Positions 558 through 41,069 of a stretch of 45,382 nucleotides of DNA are shown one piece after another. Position 1 is the first letter of the stretch, and every line of letters starts with the position of its first letter. This DNA is from Chitinophagaceae bacterium (lineage in GTDB: Bacteria > Bacteroidota > Bacteroidia > Chitinophagales > Chitinophagaceae): assembly GCA_947474815.1 (NCBI GenBank), contig CANJJU010000003.1, positions 1 to 45,382 on the forward strand. The letters run 5' to 3'. The position numbers were made by a program, and so were the translations under genes. The notes under the pieces were generated by a model. That model did no database searches. It was not told the origin of the DNA and worked only from the letters and a program-made list of their open reading frames with translations.

Positions 558-3335
558 TTATTTAATTATGTATGCAAAAGATATGCTGACATTTGCTCCA
601 TAGTTTCTGCTAATAGCCAAGACATCCTTTGAATTTTTAGAGTATTTTTTATTATTATCTAGGTCATGATAAAAATATCCAGGTGTATTTAACATATCAC
701 TGATATTCAATTTGATTTCACCTTTCTTATCCAACACCTTTTTAGCCAATTGCAAGTCCAATAACGGACGGGGGTTTTCCCATATATCAGAAATTGCTTC
801 ACTTCCTACAAATAAAATCCTACGACCAATCTGATTAAATAAAAGCGTGCTAGTGAATCCTATTTTTTCAAGATCGTATTGCAAGCCAACATTCAAGAGA
901 TATGGACTTTGTCCTTGTAAAGGACGATTGATGGTTTGAGTACTATCAGTTACTTTACTATAGATATAACTTAGGTTTCCCGTAACTGTAAAGTTTTTAA
1001 ATACGTTTGAAAAATCAAGTTTTTTTCTAAATTCCACCTCTCCGCCAAATGCTGTAGCCAACTTTGTATTAAGAATGTTGAATGTATTGGTGCCCGGACC
1101 AGTTCTATTGAAATAATATTCAATTGGGCTATCGAAATATTTAAAAAACGCCCCGATTGTTAATAGTTCACCTGGTCTTGGGTACAATTCATACCTCAAA
1201 TCAGCATTGGTGATTTTGGTTCTTTTCGCTGCCTTGTTTCCAACTACTTGTGCGCCTAATTCGAAATCATAAAAAGCAAAAGGGCTAAGCTCTCTAAATT
1301 CTGGTCTAACTACCGTCTGGCTTGCAGCAAAACGAATGTTGGTGTTTGCTGATGGCTTATAGGTTAAGTTGATGCCAGGTAAAAAATCTTTTACCAAGGT
1401 GTTTACATGTCTTGGATCAGATTGTATTACACTGCCTACTAGTTGATCAAAGCTCTCAAAGCGAACACCCCAAACCAACCTAAACTTTTCTCCTAGAGGA
1501 TTGTCAAACTGAAGATAGGCTGCGTTCATAATCGTATTGGCTATATACCTGAAAGCATTGCCTCCTATTTCATCAAACTGAGCTTTATCATTTCCAGTTC
1601 CAAAATTTTCTGCAGAAAAAATTTCATTAGCAGACAATTGTTTTATAGCATTACTAGCAGTATTGATGAAGAAAGGACGACTGTCAAACAATCTATCCTT
1701 AACCTGAAAAAGATAGCCTGCCTTGATAGAATGCTTATTTCCCTTCCAGTCAAATGTTTTGGCAACATCGCCGCCAGCATTATAGATGTAGTCATTTAAG
1801 AAACTATAGAAAATACTACCACTTTTTTGTCCAGCACCCATTCCCAACAACGCATAATAAGGAGCAGAAGGATCATTGCCATCTTGAGTATAAAAAAGTC
1901 TGCGCTGATCTGGGATGTATTGATCAAGAATATTAAATCCCCCATACCATTTTAATCGAGTGTTGTACTTTGTAATATTGTGCTCTCCTGTTACTTGCGT
2001 ATTAAAAAAAGTATTCTGCTTAAAGCCAATTTCAGTCGCTTTTATACGATCTCCATTTCCGCCGCCACTAATGATATAATCTCTTCCATCATATCTATCA
2101 ATTACATAATCAGTCGAATTGATGTTGATGATGTTTTTAAATGAAAGGCGATGATTGTTATTGAATTGTAATGTAACATTTGCTAGACCTCCTGCTAATA
2201 CGTCTCTGCTATACTTATTGTTATTATATAAAAGTTCTATATCCCCTTCATTATTAGCAATAAACCTATTATCAAAACTTGTACGCTTATTTGTATTGTT
2301 GTAAGTGATTGCAAAAATACCTGCTACCTTTTTACCAAATAATCTAGTATTGTTTCCACCACTTAATTGAAAGGAAGAATTAAGGGGAGCGTTGCCTACA
2401 AAGGGCTGCCAGTTATTTCTGAATTGGGCGCCAAAAGCTGTTTTATCGGAAATTTTCAATTGACTAAAATCATATCGCAATGGCAAAGAAGAAGGCAATG
2501 CGCGGGTTCCATTGTCAACCCCTAGCCAATCCAAGCTACCTCCATTCGATTGAAGAAAATCTTTTCCAATGGTATTGGTATTAAACCCTGTACCCAATTG
2601 GATATTTAAAAATGAAGTTGAAGGGACATCTTTGGTTTGAACCTGAACCAATCCGCCCGCCCATTCTCCCGGAAGCTCTGGAATAAATGTTTTGTTCATC
2701 ACAATATTGTCAATCATTGCAGCAGGAAAAATATCAAAACTGAATGTTTTTCTATCGGGTTCAGTACTACTTAATAAAATCCCATTGAGCATGGCTTGAT
2801 TATAACGATCACTCAATCCGCGAACAACTAAAAATTTTCCTTCTTGAACAGAGGTACCGGGTACTCTTTTTAAAATCTCTCCAGTATTTTTATCCGGACT
2901 TCTACGAATAGCCTCAGCACTGATGACTTGTGCTACAACTGAAGTGTTTTTTTGAAGTGAAATCAGTGCGTTTACAGACTCTTTTCTTGCAGACGATCTT
3001 ACTTCTATTGCAGATTCTGTTTTTGTAGCACTTTGAAGAATAATATTCAGAGAAACTGTTTCATTTACAATAGTTTCAACGCCATCAATTATTTTAGTTT
3101 GATAGCCAATAGAAGAAATTTTTAAAGAATACTTTTTAGGTGCATCAAGTATAAAAGCATAATTGCCATCAATATCAGTAGCAACGGTTGCAGACATTTC
3201 AATAACCTCAATAGAAACAGATGAAATTTTTGCCCCTGTTTTAGCATCTGTTACCTTTCCTTCAATTCTTCCCTTCTGTGCATTGGCTGAAAGAATACCC
3301 AATAAAAAAGTGGCAATTAGTATACCCTGTCTCAT
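558..3335 (-). CDS. TonB-dependent outer-membrane receptor with CarboxypepD_reg-like N-domain
   Basis: A 925-residue outer-membrane receptor that should import a ligand using TonB energy. Residues 1-19 are a signal peptide (ATFLLGILSANA, then Q20). Residues about 21-105 form the carboxypeptidase-D regulatory-like beta sandwich common in Bacteroidota receptors (GRIEGKVTDAKTGAKI). Residues about 118-238 are the plug (ILKRVPGTSVQEGKFLVVRG, later GEWAGGLVQVQTKD). The rest is beta-barrel strands rich in aromatic and Asn residues, ending in ISFAYIIK. The length is normal for the family. It is followed by a lipoprotein gene that lacks an obvious SusD start, so I do not call it SusC. It is divergent from a PhoU-Pit pair across a region carrying phased 7-mer repeats, which suggests phosphate-linked control. 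The substrate is not deducible from the sequence. Confidence 0.92.
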   Translation of the reverse strand: MRQGILIATFLLGILSANAQKGRIEGKVTDAKTGAKISSVSIEVIEMSATVATDIDGNYAFILDAPKKYSLKISSIGYQTKIIDGVETIVNETVSLNIILQSATKTESAIEVRSSARKESVNALISLQKNTSVVAQVISAEAIRRSPDKNTGEILKRVPGTSVQEGKFLVVRGLSDRYNQAMLNGILLSSTEPDRKTFSFDIFPAAMIDNIVMNKTFIPELPGEWAGGLVQVQTKDVPSTSFLNIQLGTGFNTNTIGKDFLQSNGGSLDWLGVDNGTRALPSSLPLRYDFSQLKISDKTAFGAQFRNNWQPFVGNAPLNSSFQLSGGNNTRLFGKKVAGIFAITYNNTNKRTSFDNRFIANNEGDIELLYNNNKYSRDVLAGGLANVTLQFNNNHRLSFKNIININSTDYVIDRYDGRDYIISGGGNGDRIKATEIGFKQNTFFNTQVTGEHNITKYNTRLKWYGGFNILDQYIPDQRRLFYTQDGNDPSAPYYALLGMGAGQKSGSIFYSFLNDYIYNAGGDVAKTFDWKGNKHSIKAGYLFQVKDRLFDSRPFFINTASNAIKQLSANEIFSAENFGTGNDKAQFDEIGGNAFRYIANTIMNAAYLQFDNPLGEKFRLVWGVRFESFDQLVGSVIQSDPRHVNTLVKDFLPGINLTYKPSANTNIRFAASQTVVRPEFRELSPFAFYDFELGAQVVGNKAAKRTKITNADLRYELYPRPGELLTIGAFFKYFDSPIEYYFNRTGPGTNTFNILNTKLATAFGGEVEFRKKLDFSNVFKNFTVTGNLSYIYSKVTDSTQTINRPLQGQSPYLLNVGLQYDLEKIGFTSTLLFNQIGRRILFVGSEAISDIWENPRPLLDLQLAKKVLDKKGEIKLNISDMLNTPGYFYHDLDNNKKYSKNSKDVLAISRNYGANVSISFAYIIK

Positions 3336-3353: not shown

Positions 3354-3361
3354 CAAAGTAA
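3354..3361 (-). promoter_or_regulatory. Candidate -7 element of the TonB receptor promoter
   Basis: On the minus strand this reads TTACTTTG, one mismatch from the Bacteroidota -7 consensus TAnnTTTG, 18 bp before the receptor ATG. No TTG is seen at the expected -33 position. Instead the phased 7-mer array begins 9 bp upstream, as expected for a promoter that depends on an activator. Weak on its own. Confidence 0.35.
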
Positions 3362-3370
3362 GAGAGACCA

Positions 3371-3432
3371 TGTTAACAGACTGTATGATAATGGTTAGCT
3401 AATTGCTAACTCTCTGTTACCAAAACATTACC
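3371..3432. promoter_or_regulatory. Array of six 7-mers at 11-bp spacing (PhoB/PhoP-type operator)
   Basis: 7-mers start at 3371 TGTTAAC, 3382 TGTATGA, 3393 GGTTAGC, 3404 TGCTAAC, 3415 TGTTACC and 3426 CATTACC, each separated by a 4-bp spacer (AGAC, TAAT, TAAT, TCTC, AAAA). The consensus is TGTTAnC with an 11-bp period. On the minus strand the units read GTTAACA, TCATACA, GCTAACC, GTTAGCA, GGTAACA and GGTAATG. Known biology: OmpR/PhoB-family regulators bind 7-bp direct repeats with an 11-bp period, and the Bacillus PhoP box is TTAACA-like. The array covers the -33 region of the receptor promoter. Because GTTAAC is itself palindromic, the site could also be read as dyads (GTTAGC-5-GCTAAC at 3394-3410). 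Confidence 0.6.
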
Positions 3433-3519
3433 AACAATGAAATAGCCTAGCAACAAGAATCAGTTAGGCAAATGAGTAAACATTAAAAATGGCTAAGATT
3501 ACTACCAAAAATCGACTAA

Positions 3520-3537
3520 TGTTAAGAAATTATTACC
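3520..3537. promoter_or_regulatory. Second phased 7-mer pair upstream of the PhoU-Pit promoter
   Basis: TGTTAAG at 3520-3526, a 4-bp spacer AAAT, and TATTACC at 3531-3537 repeat the motif and 11-bp step of the array at 3371-3432. The pair ends 35 bp before the TACCTTTG -7 candidate, the right place for an activator contacting polymerase at the PhoU-Pit promoter. With only two copies in AT-rich DNA, chance is a real possibility. Confidence 0.4.
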
Positions 3538-3572: not shown

Positions 3573-3580
3573 TACCTTTG
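3573..3580 (+). promoter_or_regulatory. -7 promoter element (TACCTTTG) for PhoU-like/Pit operon
   Basis: A perfect TAnnTTTG match 17 bp before the ATG of the PhoU-like gene. There is no clear TTG at -33, only a TG at 3549-3550 (22-bp spacing). This fits a weak promoter helped by the regulator whose candidate sites lie just upstream. Confidence 0.5.
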
Positions 3581-3597
3581 GAACAAATTATCTAATT

Positions 3598-4245
3598 ATG
3601 GCCTTTAATACAATTCTTAAAATATTCTTGCCTAAAGACAGGGTCTTTTACCAACTATTTGAAAATGTTTCTGGCGTATTGGTTAAGATGGGACAAAAAT
3701 TAAAAGAAGTGGTTACGGAGCCCGACTTTGAACAAAGAGCAAAACTTATTAAAGAAGTGGAAGATCTTGAGCACATCAACGATGATTATACCCATCAAAT
3801 TTTTACTGAACTAGGAAAGAATTTTATTACCCCATTTGATAGAGAAGATATCCATTATCTAGCAAGTTCTCTAGATGACATCGCGGATTACATTTATGCT
3901 TCCGCAAAGAAAATTAATTTCTATCATGTAGACCCTAATGACATAGGCATTCAAAAAATGGCTGATCTTATTGCGGTTGGTTGTACACATGTTCATAAAG
4001 CTGTTACAGAATTACGCAACATGAAAAATATGCGTCAAATTACAGATGCATTAGTAGCCATAAATAGTATAGAAAACCAGGGTGACGATATTTTTGATAT
4101 GAGTATTGAAAGATTGTTTGCAACAGAACCTGACGCCAAAGAAGTAATCAAGAAAAGAGAAATTTATCAAGTAATGGAAATCGTTACCGATAAATGTGAA
4201 GATGCAGCCAATGTGATTGAATCAATCATTATTAAATACGCTTAA
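3598..4245 (+). CDS. PhoU-like Pit accessory protein (DUF47 family)
   Basis: A 215-residue, all-helical cytoplasmic protein without signal or membrane segments, matching the DUF47/TIGR00153 PhoU-like family that pairs with Pit-type phosphate permeases. Diagnostic features are the KEVEDLEHINDDYTHQIF and FITPFDREDIHYLASSLDDI helices, whose acidic residues (E/DxxxD) bind metal clusters in PhoU relatives, and a second half with IENQGDDIFD. It lies 27 bp upstream of the Pit gene on the same strand, the usual arrangement. The expected role is to modulate phosphate transport or signal phosphate status. The start is the ATG at 3598, 17 bp after a -7 promoter match. Confidence 0.93.
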   Translation: MAFNTILKIFLPKDRVFYQLFENVSGVLVKMGQKLKEVVTEPDFEQRAKLIKEVEDLEHINDDYTHQIFTELGKNFITPFDREDIHYLASSLDDIADYIYASAKKINFYHVDPNDIGIQKMADLIAVGCTHVHKAVTELRNMKNMRQITDALVAINSIENQGDDIFDMSIERLFATEPDAKEVIKKREIYQVMEIVTDKCEDAANVIESIIIKYA

Positions 4246-4272: not shown

Positions 4273-5487
4273 ATGACTTTTTTGATTGTTATCATAGCGT
4301 TGGCTTTGATTTTCGACTACATTAATGGATTTCATGATGCAGCCAATTCAATAGCTACAGTAGTCTCTACAAAAGTACTCACCCCAGGACAAGCGGTGAT
4401 TTGGGCAGCCATGTTTAATTTTGTTGCTTACTTTATTTTTAAAGATCATGGCGTAGCAAATACAATTGCCAAAACAGTAAGACCAGAAATTGTGAGCGGT
4501 CACAATATGTTATTGGTAATATTTTCCGGGTTGCTTTCTGCTATTTTCTGGAATTTATTCACTTGGTGGTTTGGCATCCCTTCCTCTTCCTCTCATGCTC
4601 TTATTGGGGCTTTTTCAGGTGCCGCTGTGGCTTTTGGAGGATTTGCTTCTATTAATTCCGAGCCTATTATCAAAACGATTTCATTTATTTTATTAGCGCC
4701 GATTATAGGTATGGTCATAGCATTTATTATTTCGCTTTGGTTTATTCATTCTTTCAAGAAAGGCTGGATGCCTAAAATAATTGCATTCCTTGTTTTTATT
4801 TTAGTACTGATTTTCTTAAAAAACAATCTTATAACTGATTCAGCAGCTATTAAAAGTGTTCAGTTTAAAAGTAATGCCTTAAAAATTATTTTTTTTGGCT
4901 CCAATTTTAAATGGATTTTACTGTCAGCTATTTTATTCATTATGGCTGCATTCACTTTATTTTTAAGTTCTTTAAATGCACACAGCGCGAATGTTTGGTT
5001 TAAAAAACTTCAACTAGTATCCTCCGCAGCATTTAGCATTGGACATGGTGGTAACGACGCACAAAAAGTAATGGGAATTATTATGGCTGCGCTGATTGCA
5101 TATGACCCTACCCGTTATTTCTTGCACAATATGGTTTGGTGGGTTCCATTGGCTTGTTATGCTGCCATTGCACTGGGCACAATGAGTGGCGGCTGGAAGA
5201 TTGTAAAAACGATGGGGACCAAAATTACAAAAGTGACCCCATTTGAAGGAGTTGCTGCAGAAACGGCTGGAGCGATTACCTTATTTGTAACAGAAGCTTT
5301 AAAAATACCCGTAAGCACTACTCATACGATTACAGGAAGCATCATTGGGGTAGGTGCAACAAAAAGACTTTCAGCAGTAAGATGGGGCGTTACAGTTAAT
5401 TTGTTATGGGCTTGGATTTTAACGATTCCCATCAGCGGATTACTTGCAGCATTCATTTACACTGTCCTTCATTATTTTAAATTCTAA
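4273..5487 (+). CDS. pit: Low-affinity inorganic phosphate transporter, Pit family
   Basis: A 404-residue polytopic inner-membrane permease of the PiT/PHO4 family, which moves metal-phosphate or phosphate with cation symport. Both family signature repeats are present: GFHDAANSIATVVSTKVL near residues 19-36 and SIGHGGNDAQKVMGIIMAAL in the second half. GIPSSSSHALIGAFSGA and KIPVSTTHTITGSIIGVGA form the inverted-repeat pair of substrate loops. About ten membrane segments are visible. Co-transcription with the PhoU-like gene is likely, and an intrinsic terminator follows at 5512. Nothing is missing or truncated. Confidence 0.95.
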   Translation: MTFLIVIIALALIFDYINGFHDAANSIATVVSTKVLTPGQAVIWAAMFNFVAYFIFKDHGVANTIAKTVRPEIVSGHNMLLVIFSGLLSAIFWNLFTWWFGIPSSSSHALIGAFSGAAVAFGGFASINSEPIIKTISFILLAPIIGMVIAFIISLWFIHSFKKGWMPKIIAFLVFILVLIFLKNNLITDSAAIKSVQFKSNALKIIFFGSNFKWILLSAILFIMAAFTLFLSSLNAHSANVWFKKLQLVSSAAFSIGHGGNDAQKVMGIIMAALIAYDPTRYFLHNMVWWVPLACYAAIALGTMSGGWKIVKTMGTKITKVTPFEGVAAETAGAITLFVTEALKIPVSTTHTITGSIIGVGATKRLSAVRWGVTVNLLWAWILTIPISGLLAAFIYTVLHYFKF

Positions 5488-30428: not shown

Positions 30429-31502
30429 ATGACCATTGTTGTTCAAATTGATTCGAGTAATGCTGCGAATGACATTAGAAGAGATTTTAATGAACGTTGT
30501 TTTATATTGTTAGCAAAGAAGAACCCCTCAGTGTCTTTTGTTTTTGTTTCAGACACCCCTTTTTTGAAATCTTTTGAAGCAATTCAAAATATCACCTATT
30601 TAACTATAGGCCCTAGATTAAGGAATTCTCTATTTAATCATTACTGGTATCAGCATAAGCTTTCCAAAATATTAAAAAAGCTGAATGCAAATTATTTTTT
30701 TAGCAGCACGAATCATTGCAACCATAAAACCAATACAGCTCAGGCAATATATTTAGAGACGCTTTTATCCTCAAGAGATAATAAGAAAAAAAATCTATTA
30801 AAAGCTTCTCATATTATTGTTCCAAATGACTACATTAAATTAAACGCTTCGCTATTAATGCCTGCTATTACTGAGAAGTTATTGGTGTGCTATTCTGGAA
30901 TAGAAAAAAAAGTTGCCGCCGCAATTGAAATAAAAGAAAATATTAAAAAGACATACACAGGAGATAAGGATTTTTTCTTTTTCGATTTTGAAGACACAAC
31001 AGATAAAAAGTTACTACTTGTACTGAAGGCTTTTTCTCTTTTTAAGAAATGGCAACAATCTAAAATGAAGTTACTACTGGCAGTAGATTCAATTAAAATA
31101 CAATCTGTTGAAACAATATGTTCAAATTATAAATACAAAGAAGATGTTGTGATCGTTTCTAGCCAATCAAAAGAAACATTAGATTTCCTCATAGGGAGCG
31201 CTTACGCAAGTATTTTCATGCCGAATCAACATAAAATACCCCTAAATGTTCATACGGCGTTGTCGTATGAAGTGCCTGTGATTTTACCAGAAACAGCATT
31301 TTACAGAGCTAATTTTGGCGAAGCCATTTTATATTCTGAAGAAAATGAAACATCCATTTCCAATGGCATGATACTATTATATAAAGATGAACGAGCCCGA
31401 AACCAATTTATACAAAAAGGGAAAGAATTATCTGCAGATAGAACCTGGGAAAACTGTGCCCACTCTGTTTGGGAATCAATAATTAATAAAAAGAAAATAT
31501 AA
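30429..31502 (+). CDS. Divergent glycosyltransferase-like protein (GT-B fold)
   Basis: 357 residues, no signal or membrane segment. The arrangement resembles a GT4-type glycosyltransferase: N-domain beginning MTIVVQIDSSNAANDIRRDF, a central hinge (VCYSGIEKKVAAAIEIKENI), and a C-domain with FFFFDFEDTTDKKLLLVLKA and a helix-strand close to the donor site (LIGSAYASIFMPNQHKIPLN then ALSYEVPVILPE). The usual E-x7-E donor motif is weak or lost. It starts 9 bp after the CNNM gene, so they are probably co-transcribed. Acceptor and donor are unknown; it may be a degenerate or highly diverged transferase. Confidence 0.65.
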   Translation: MTIVVQIDSSNAANDIRRDFNERCFILLAKKNPSVSFVFVSDTPFLKSFEAIQNITYLTIGPRLRNSLFNHYWYQHKLSKILKKLNANYFFSSTNHCNHKTNTAQAIYLETLLSSRDNKKKNLLKASHIIVPNDYIKLNASLLMPAITEKLLVCYSGIEKKVAAAIEIKENIKKTYTGDKDFFFFDFEDTTDKKLLLVLKAFSLFKKWQQSKMKLLLAVDSIKIQSVETICSNYKYKEDVVIVSSQSKETLDFLIGSAYASIFMPNQHKIPLNVHTALSYEVPVILPETAFYRANFGEAILYSEENETSISNGMILLYKDERARNQFIQKGKELSADRTWENCAHSVWESIINKKKI

Positions 31503-37903: not shown

Positions 37904-38611
37904 ATGATAAAGAAAAAATATTCTATCCTACTAGTAGAAGATGAAGAAAATCTACAAGAAGCACTCAAACTAAATCTAGAGCTGGAAGACTATGAAGTTA
38001 GAAGTAGTTATGATGGCGCAAATGCTTTAAAACTTGTTCATCAAGAACATTTTGATCTAATAATATTAGATGTAATGCTTCCAGAAGTTGATGGAATTAC
38101 TGTTTGCGAAACCATTAGACTGCAAAACATTGCTATTCCCATTTTGATGCTCAGCGCAAAAAATACTAGTGCCGACAGAGTTTTGGGATTAAAAAAAGGA
38201 GCCGATGACTATTTAACAAAGCCTTTTAATCTCGAAGAACTATTACTGCGGGTAGCGAATTTGATAAAGAAAAATGAACAACTTACCTTAAAATCAGCAA
38301 TCCCAGATTTATATGAATTCGGAAAAAATAAAATTGATTTCAAAGGATTGGAATGCTTTAATAAAAAAGGAGACAAAATAAACTTGACTAAAAGAGAAGG
38401 GATGTTACTAAAACTTTTAATAGAAAATAAAAACGAAGTAGTAACAAGAGAAATAATATTACAAAAAGTATGGGGATATAATGTTTACCCCACTACTAGA
38501 ACAATTGACAACTTCATCTTATCATTTAGAAAATATTTTGAAGAAGATAGCAAACACCCTGTTTATTTTCATTCAATAAGAGGTATAGGATATAAATTTA
38601 CCGCTTCCTAG
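37904..38611 (+). CDS. OmpR/PhoB-type response regulator
   Basis: 235 residues. Receiver domain with the acidic pocket (VEDEEN), phospho-acceptor Asp56 in LIILDVMLPEVDG and Lys106 in DYLTKPF. A winged-helix DNA-binding domain follows (INLTKREGMLLKLLI and RTIDNFILSFRKYFEE, then FHSIRGIGYKF). Proteins of this class bind direct repeats 11 bp apart, the arrangement seen at 3371-3432, but nothing here proves that this regulator acts there. Co-transcribed with the kinase. Confidence 0.94.
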   Translation: MIKKKYSILLVEDEENLQEALKLNLELEDYEVRSSYDGANALKLVHQEHFDLIILDVMLPEVDGITVCETIRLQNIAIPILMLSAKNTSADRVLGLKKGADDYLTKPFNLEELLLRVANLIKKNEQLTLKSAIPDLYEFGKNKIDFKGLECFNKKGDKINLTKREGMLLKLLIENKNEVVTREIILQKVWGYNVYPTTRTIDNFILSFRKYFEEDSKHPVYFHSIRGIGYKFTAS

Positions 38612-40412: not shown

Positions 40413-41069
40413 CTAGATATTGGCTATCACCGTCACCCCGCCCTGTACCACTTCATTAAGCCCTACATTCAGTTTGGTGCCAATAGGCAATAAAAGGTCT
40501 ACTCTACTGCCAAATTTTATAAACCCTAACTCTTCTCCCTGTTTTACCTGTTGGCCAACCTGCAAATAATTAACAATTCTTTTAGCAACGGCACCTGCAA
40601 TTTGCTTTACCAATATTTGGGTGTTGCCTTTTTTTAGCACCACGGAATGACGTTCGTTTTCTGTAGAAGATTTAGGATTCCATGCTACGAGATATTTCCC
40701 TTTGTGATACTGATTATAAATTACTTCACCACTAATAGGATTACGATTAACATGCACATTAGCAGGACTCATAAAAATCGAAACCTGTAATCTCTTTTCT
40801 TTAAAATATTCCTCATCAATTGTTTCTTCTATTACTACCACTTTTCCATCTGCAGGCGCAATAATAAAATTTTCATTCACCGTTAAAGTACGAGCAGGAA
40901 TTCTAAAAAAAGAAATAATAAATAATAGAAATATAAACGAAATCAAAAGGACTGACAAGCAAAGCCATAAAAAATCGCCCTTAAAGAGCCATAAAAATAA
41001 CATATTAAGCACCCCTACAAATAATGTGGTGGCTGCAATTGTTTTGTATCCTTCCCGATGAATAGTCAT
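40413..41069 (-). CDS. psd: Phosphatidylserine decarboxylase proenzyme
   Basis: 218 residues from the ATG at 41067-41069 (MTIHREGYKT); a longer frame from 41102 adds 11 residues. It makes phosphatidylethanolamine from phosphatidylserine. The short PSD-A type has a self-cleavage site between Gly187 and Ser188 in FIKFGSRVDLLLP, where the Ser becomes the pyruvoyl group. Two N-terminal membrane helices (about 10-28 and 34-54) precede the domain; ANVHVNRNPISGEV is the family motif. It lies 54 bp downstream of cdsA: two steps of one pathway, co-transcribed. Confidence 0.94.
   Translation of the reverse strand: MTIHREGYKTIAATTLFVGVLNMLFLWLFKGDFLWLCLSVLLISFIFLLFIISFFRIPARTLTVNENFIIAPADGKVVVIEETIDEEYFKEKRLQVSIFMSPANVHVNRNPISGEVIYNQYHKGKYLVAWNPKSSTENERHSVVLKKGNTQILVKQIAGAVAKRIVNYLQVGQQVKQGEELGFIKFGSRVDLLLPIGTKLNVGLNEVVQGGVTVIANI

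Follow-up and report, generated by a model that had tools for sequence, protein, structure and literature searches.

OmpR-type regulators typically bind direct repeats. The PHO box of Escherichia coli consists of head-to-tail 11-bp units, is found at genes for phosphate functions, phoB and pst among them, and sits in place of the upstream promoter element, some 10 bp from the -10 element; the PhoP box of Bacillus subtilis is built from TTAACA repeats with an 11-bp period. The unit bound by E. coli PhoB is given as CTGTCAT and that of the Streptomyces and Mycobacterium PhoP boxes as GTTCACC (PMC4415409), and Mycobacterium PhoP has been described with direct repeats of 7-bp units separated by 4-bp spacers (PMC4832192).

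Within the Bacteroidota, PhoB of Bacteroides fragilis binds the pstC promoter in gel shifts with a 512-bp fragment (PMC3547664). This is a regulator from the same phylum as ours, and we found no box sequence in the available text of that paper; the words "consensus" and "motif" do not occur in its main text. In Flavobacterium johnsoniae, phosphate depletion induces a TonB receptor encoded beside phoBR, together with PhoB, PlcP and a glycosyltransferase, while OprP is not induced (PMC8115612); these are the same kinds of gene as we describe here, and the main text of that source contains neither "pho box" nor "motif". Pho boxes have also been predicted bioinformatically upstream of plcP-glycosyltransferase clusters in marine bacteria (PMC4796936), a gene pair that is present here as well, and the available text of that study yielded neither a box sequence nor a statement on whether any of the clusters was from Bacteroidetes. 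We likewise found no Bacteroidota box in the available text of PMC8812569, PMC6365647 or PMC4415409, and no PHO-box sequence for Bacteroidota in the open-licence literature searched, as far as its accessible text extends.

PHO boxes are well known elsewhere, and the candidate box that we describe from a member of the Chitinophagaceae adds a lineage to a known class of operator; its comparative support is unusually full. It resembles the E. coli PHO box in its head-to-tail 11-bp units, in having phoB and pst among its targets, and in standing in place of the upstream promoter element; it differs in that the unit on the coding strand is TTAACA or GTAACA rather than CTGTCAT, in that up to six slots are used, and in that the promoter has a Bacteroidota-type -7 element (TnnnTTTG). 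With the B. subtilis PhoP box it shares the word, the 11-bp period and the coding-strand orientation at receptor, phoB and pst promoters, but phylum and promoter are different and the units fall into a six-slot register with a weak slot 2. The direct-repeat layout of 7-bp units and 4-bp spacers is that of the Streptomyces and Mycobacterium PhoP boxes, whereas the unit sequence and the targets are not.

Results

A six-unit array in the promoter of a TonB-dependent receptor gene

The window, by which we mean the whole stretch of 45,382 nucleotides that was analysed, carries a divergent gene pair with the following features.

558..3335, minus strand: TonB-dependent receptor, 925 aa (PF00593, PF07715)
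3354..3361, minus strand: -7-like element TTACTTTG in the receptor promoter, separated from the array by 9 bp
3371..3432, minus strand: predicted six-slot PHO operator of the TonB receptor (nearest slot 3371-3377, farthest slot 3426-3432)
3382..3388, minus strand: slot 2, a degenerate unit near the -33 position; in relatives, too, this slot is filled least often (0.33 of 48 promoters)
3520..3537, plus strand: predicted two-unit PHO box of the DUF47-Pit operon, TGTTAAG-N4-TATTACC, in sense orientation
3573..3580, plus strand: -7-like element TACCTTTG in the DUF47-Pit promoter, 35 bp downstream of the two-unit box
3598..4245, plus strand: DUF47/PhoU_div protein, the Pit partner (PF01865)
4273..5487, plus strand: Pit-type phosphate permease of the PHO4 family (PF01384)

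An earlier sequence-only reading had proposed that six 7-mers lie at exact 11-bp spacing between a TonB receptor and a phosphate permease with its PhoU-like partner, and both the gene assignments and the positions hold: the units begin at 3371, 3382, 3393, 3404, 3415 and 3426, exactly 11 bp apart. The unit word is TGTTAMC on the plus strand and KTTAACA-like on the coding strand of the receptor. Bacteroidota promoters follow a -7/-33 model, and the array begins 9 bp upstream of TTACTTTG and extends through the -33 zone of the receptor promoter, an overlap that had also been proposed. Scans for sigma70 promoters and terminators returned no matches.

Against a genus-wide unit matrix, units 1, 5 and 6 score strongly (10.1, 11.6 and 6.1), units 3 and 4 are marginal (-0.8 and 1.5), and unit 2 (TGTATGA) is a poor fit (-18.9). 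Of 500 dinucleotide shuffles of the 262 bp between the two genes, 2 attained the period-11 self-similarity score of the array, and 12 did so when any period from 8 to 14 was allowed; two further areas of the window, at 31474/31485 and at 40913, equal it. These figures are what speaks for chance periodicity in an AT-rich spacer. Taken alone, the self-similarity of the array is weak evidence. The case rests on comparison with relatives, which is decisive.

The window also contains a perfect inverted repeat, GTTAGC-TAATT-GCTAAC, at 3394-3410, which is probably a by-product of two direct units.

The array keeps its register in relatives

In relatives with the same divergent pair, phased GTTAMC-type units stand in place of the window array, as seen by alignment in loci L032-L034, L041 and L043 and by reading the sequence in L050 and L052; the close relative L035 keeps the units with one base missing inside the array. 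An element of the form TnnnTTTG lies between array and gene in 48 of 51 receptor or barrel sites with an antisense array. Measured from this -7 element, the units in these 48 promoters fall at an offset of 9 plus multiples of 11, with occupancies of 0.62, 0.33, 0.77, 0.85, 0.67 and 0.67 for slots 1 to 6 and zero for both slots 7 and 8, and for the ten other offsets tried (between 4 and 14) the occupancy of any slot was at most 0.12. The window has the same layout, with six slots, an offset of 9 and slot 2 as the worst, and slot 2 may be relaxed owing to its place near the -33 position. OprP-like and PAP2 genes have other offsets, chiefly 11 (16 of 76 pooled) and 6 (5 of 76 pooled).

We then described the receptor promoter by a 79-nt profile trained on 41 of these promoters, after removal of seven loci belonging to the clade of the window. 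The top position in the window was the array with its -7 element (3432-3354, minus strand) at 35.3 bits, the next position reaching 14.4 bits (mean -44.8, standard deviation 11.7). The held-out relatives L032-L034, L041 and L043 scored 34.6 to 54.5 bits; L035 scored only 5.6 bits, yet this was the best position of its own locus. Locus L050 does not count as held out, as it is the same place as training locus L190, and L250, whose receptor is 79% identical to that of the window, was left out of this profile but kept in the model R1 described below. The profile consensus runs TTAACATT..TAACAT..GTAACA and so on, and the consensus of the box on the coding strand is (C/G)(T/G)TAA(C/T)A. This agrees with the earlier suggestion that the minus-strand units are TTAACA-like. 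Conservation of the 11-bp phasing had been set in advance as a test of the proposal, and the phasing is conserved, both in the six-slot register of the 48 promoters and in the held-out profile, with L035 one base short.

These comparisons bear on two simpler accounts of the array. Chance periodicity would leave no reason for a profile trained elsewhere to favour this position by 35.3 bits over 14.4 in the window, or for the array to be the top match in the source genome, among the sites scored, for a model trained on other genomes (see below); the conserved register refutes this explanation, to which we give almost no credence. According to the second, the operator is the palindrome GTTAGC-N5-GCTAAC at 3394-3410, or a hairpin, and the 11-bp spacing is incidental. 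The repeat is plainly visible in the window sequence, but among the loci compared only L249 shares it. What relatives retain are the TTAC/TTAA units at 11-bp spacing; in the six-slot register, slots 3 and 4 each contain a direct unit, and the region is upstream of both -7 elements. As an operator the palindrome is largely refuted by this comparison, and we consider it highly improbable.

Some database titles among the relatives look wrong. The contigs of L032, L037 and L083 carry the locus of this Chitinophagaceae genus. L032, whose DUF47 protein is 96% identical to that of the window, is titled as a Streptomyces griseus MAG, apparently a mislabel, and the titles of L037 and L083 as Chitinophaga pinensis MAGs are doubtful.

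The motif lies at phosphate genes across the genus

A search with the three-unit pattern TRTTAMS-N4-TRTTAMS-N4-TRTTAMS, allowing at most one mismatch, gave 130 matches, compared with 14 for the reversed pattern; 64 of 93 genus genomes were matched and 29 had no match. We took 96 regions around these matches and merged the sites into 105, of which 95 lie within 260 bp of a gene from one of seven recurring clusters and 10 lie at none.

Window's TonB receptor family: 42 sites, array antisense to the gene
DUF47-Pit: 32 sites, sense
OprP-like porin: 19 sites, antisense; of two representatives, one reaches PF07396 and the other has no match
Second outer-membrane barrel protein (PF25183): 9 sites, antisense
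Metallophosphoesterase followed by glycosyltransferase: 8 sites, 5 antisense and 3 sense
PAP2 phosphatase: 5 sites, antisense
Protein without a Pfam match: 5 sites, antisense

For 60 of the 105 sites, a gene for DUF47-Pit, an OprP-like porin, a metallophosphoesterase or PAP2 is no more than 260 bp away. A further 32 have only a receptor or barrel gene, and so are without an independent phosphate label, and three have only the unnamed protein. One of the ten sites outside the clusters (L187) stands at the head of a series of genes that encode, among others, a PstS-like protein and PstC, two phosphoesterase sites (L183 and L243) adjoin a PhoB/PhoR-like pair, and another site (L252) lies between a phosphoesterase and a polyphosphate kinase gene. 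The expectation that the motif would be concentrated near phosphate genes is thus borne out for DUF47-Pit, the OprP-like porin, PAP2 and the phosphoesterase with its glycosyltransferase, as well as for pst and phoB, treated below.

At L200 the box (2501-2529) separates a TonB receptor from a gene (1246-2388) for a FAD oxidoreductase of TIGR03364 (HpnW_proposed), with a membrane protein adjoining, and L241 has this arrangement also. We take TIGR03364 to be linked to phosphonates, hinting that some boxed receptors may import them.

Boxes precede pst genes in some Bacteroidota

Across the phylum, the three-unit pattern gave 191 matches compared with 42 for the control, and 110 of 296 Bacteroidota genomes were matched. 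No PstC was detected in the source genome, which encodes a Na/Pi cotransporter-family protein besides Pit, and of 40 genus genomes only 4 had pstC above the cut-off; for this reason pst was tested phylum-wide. The loci were chosen by gene and not by motif, as the best-scoring 30, with 75 of 118 genomes having a match. Thirteen model matches (E at most 1) were found in 11 of the 30 loci, which span 115 kb, and all of them lie directly upstream of pst genes in antisense orientation, the first pst genes being assigned by position. The other 19 loci had no model match at E at most 1; in some of these the operon may begin beyond the flank taken.

The source genome and its candidate regulator

For the 1.9-Mb source genome we used a 29-nt model, R1, built from 84 of 101 distinct sites, all from other genomes. 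The 17 sites left out by choice were five of the window's close clade (L245, L249, L254, L257 and L261) and twelve others, most of which have no recurring target gene, although L228 and L240 among them do. Of 991 first-look candidates 150 were scored, giving six model matches. Among the scored sites the best was 3407-3432 (15.8 bits, E 0.033), and the second, 3518-3537 (14.8 bits, E 0.069), is in the same intergenic region. The third (13.6 bits; C2:20428-20449, minus strand, equal to L298 1501-1522) lies antisense upstream of a PcrB-family (geranylgeranylglyceryl phosphate synthase-like) gene; for the other three no connection with phosphate is evident. A strong box also stands before a PcrB-family gene in another genus (L271, 1501-1529), and these boxes suggest that the regulon may include a lipid gene.

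Simpler searches told us less. The genus pattern at up to one mismatch had no match in the source genome, the window array being degenerate, and a looser three-unit pattern with one mismatch was uninformative there (4 matches, compared with 17 for its reversed control). With a PSSM built solely from the six units of the window, 11 was the best period in 32 of 78 usable upstream regions (80 taken), followed by 21 (8 regions) and 22 (7 regions), and was superseded by the genus-wide model.

Three OmpR-type regulators are encoded in the source genome. One of them, L136 on contig C63, is best matched by PhoB models, its two best being TIGR02154 (211 of 296.2 bits) and NF053854 (201 of 270 bits), in both cases below the curated cut-off; the alignment to the PhoB model is full-length, PF00486 is matched, and an adjacent open reading frame encodes a PhoR-type kinase with HisKA and HATPase_c. 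Its ortholog at L183 has PF00072 and PF00486 together with a PhoR/PnpS-like kinase. The other two regulators have YycF and RprY as their best models.

Only the PhoB-like regulator has a box upstream, scoring 11.1 bits; this box is absent from the genome-scan output, for which 150 of the 991 candidates were scored. At the other two no box was found at E at most 0.5 in their locus stretches. Thirty genus orthologs of L136 were taken, one of which was too short upstream; 26 of the other 29 have an antisense two-unit box 54-67 bp upstream of the phoB start codon. The 18-mer TATTATYAAATTGTTAAS is present in 24 of these 29 loci and absent from the rest of their sequence (99,781 bp). The three loci without the relaxed two-unit box are L312 and L330, each off by one letter, and L324, which is differently arranged. 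In L284 and L287, which belong to other families of this class, the array adjoins a PhoB-like gene.

One may postulate instead that the array is a direct-repeat operator for another OmpR-type regulator, RprY-like or the response regulator encoded at 37904-38611 in the window, with phosphate genes forming only part of its targets. The presence of three such regulators in the genome, one of them in the same window, makes this worth considering, as does their general preference for direct repeats. Against it, the box precedes phoB in 26 of 29 genus loci and neighbours a PhoB-like gene at two loci from other families, it precedes pst genes in 11 of the 30 phylum loci, and the other two regulators have neither a box at E at most 0.5 nor PhoB as their best family model. 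We regard this alternative as improbable; the regulator is most likely the PhoB-like L136 encoded elsewhere in the genome, and not the response regulator of the window.

The DUF47-Pit operon has a box of its own

The reading of the array as a Pho box is supported by these results, with one correction. The array would serve the receptor, and Pit has its own two-unit box at 3520-3537, which had been missed. The source genome contains no exact two-unit match besides TGTTAAG-N4-TATTACC, and three matches to the reversed control. A two-unit box before DUF47-Pit is conserved in relatives, but not everywhere, as L032-L034 have a single unit there. The 35-bp spacing from the box to a TACCTTTG-type element is shared with 8 of 22 relatives that have the DUF47 gene within 70 bp.

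The orientation of the Pit box to its own gene is opposite to that of the receptor array and inverted relative to most other boxes. Given this inverted orientation and the distance of 35 bp, either sign of control is compatible with the arrangement. The orfA-pit operon of Sinorhizobium is presumably the counterpart of DUF47-Pit. That operon is repressed upon phosphate starvation (PMC3131613).

In L279, a more distant relative from another family, the DUF47 box (1503-1529) is antisense to its gene (819-1463) and 37 bp from the start codon, an orientation opposite to the arrangement in the genus. The polarity of Pit control may thus have switched between lineages.

Discussion

The explanation that we favour, and consider very probable, is that the array is a tandem PHO operator of six half-sites through which PhoB would activate the receptor gene in low phosphate, with a separate two-unit box controlling DUF47-Pit. 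Under this model, exhaustion of phosphate would lead PhoR to phosphorylate PhoB. By analogy with known PhoB/PhoP operators, the six head-to-tail 11-bp half-sites, with room for three dimers, would be filled by PhoB along a single helical face, covering the -33 position of the receptor promoter and the DNA upstream of it. There PhoB would stand in for the upstream promoter element and bring RNA polymerase to the -7 element, at a distance of 9 bp. The TonB receptor would thereby be switched on, and phosphorus compounds, its presumed ligands, could cross the outer membrane. The two-unit box, being of the same kind, would control the divergent DUF47-Pit operon.

A wider interpretation can be offered more tentatively, and we think it possible but rather doubtful: a single Bacteroidota PHO box may exist in which orientation sets the sign of control. 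A coding-strand TTAACA about 9-11 bp from the -7 element would let as many as three PhoB dimers activate outer-membrane receptors, porins, pst and phoB, and the inverted box 35 bp from the DUF47-Pit promoter would act otherwise, perhaps turning Pit down. If this is true, a bacterium in which no Pst was detected would use one intergenic region to replace low-affinity uptake of phosphate with scavenging through a receptor.

Omics studies have mapped low-phosphate regulons in Bacteroidota, and the consensus and promoter register reported here now allow PHO regulons to be predicted from genomes. Such predictions would include TonB receptors with cargo still to be assigned, for which exact fragments are given for gel shifts and reporters.
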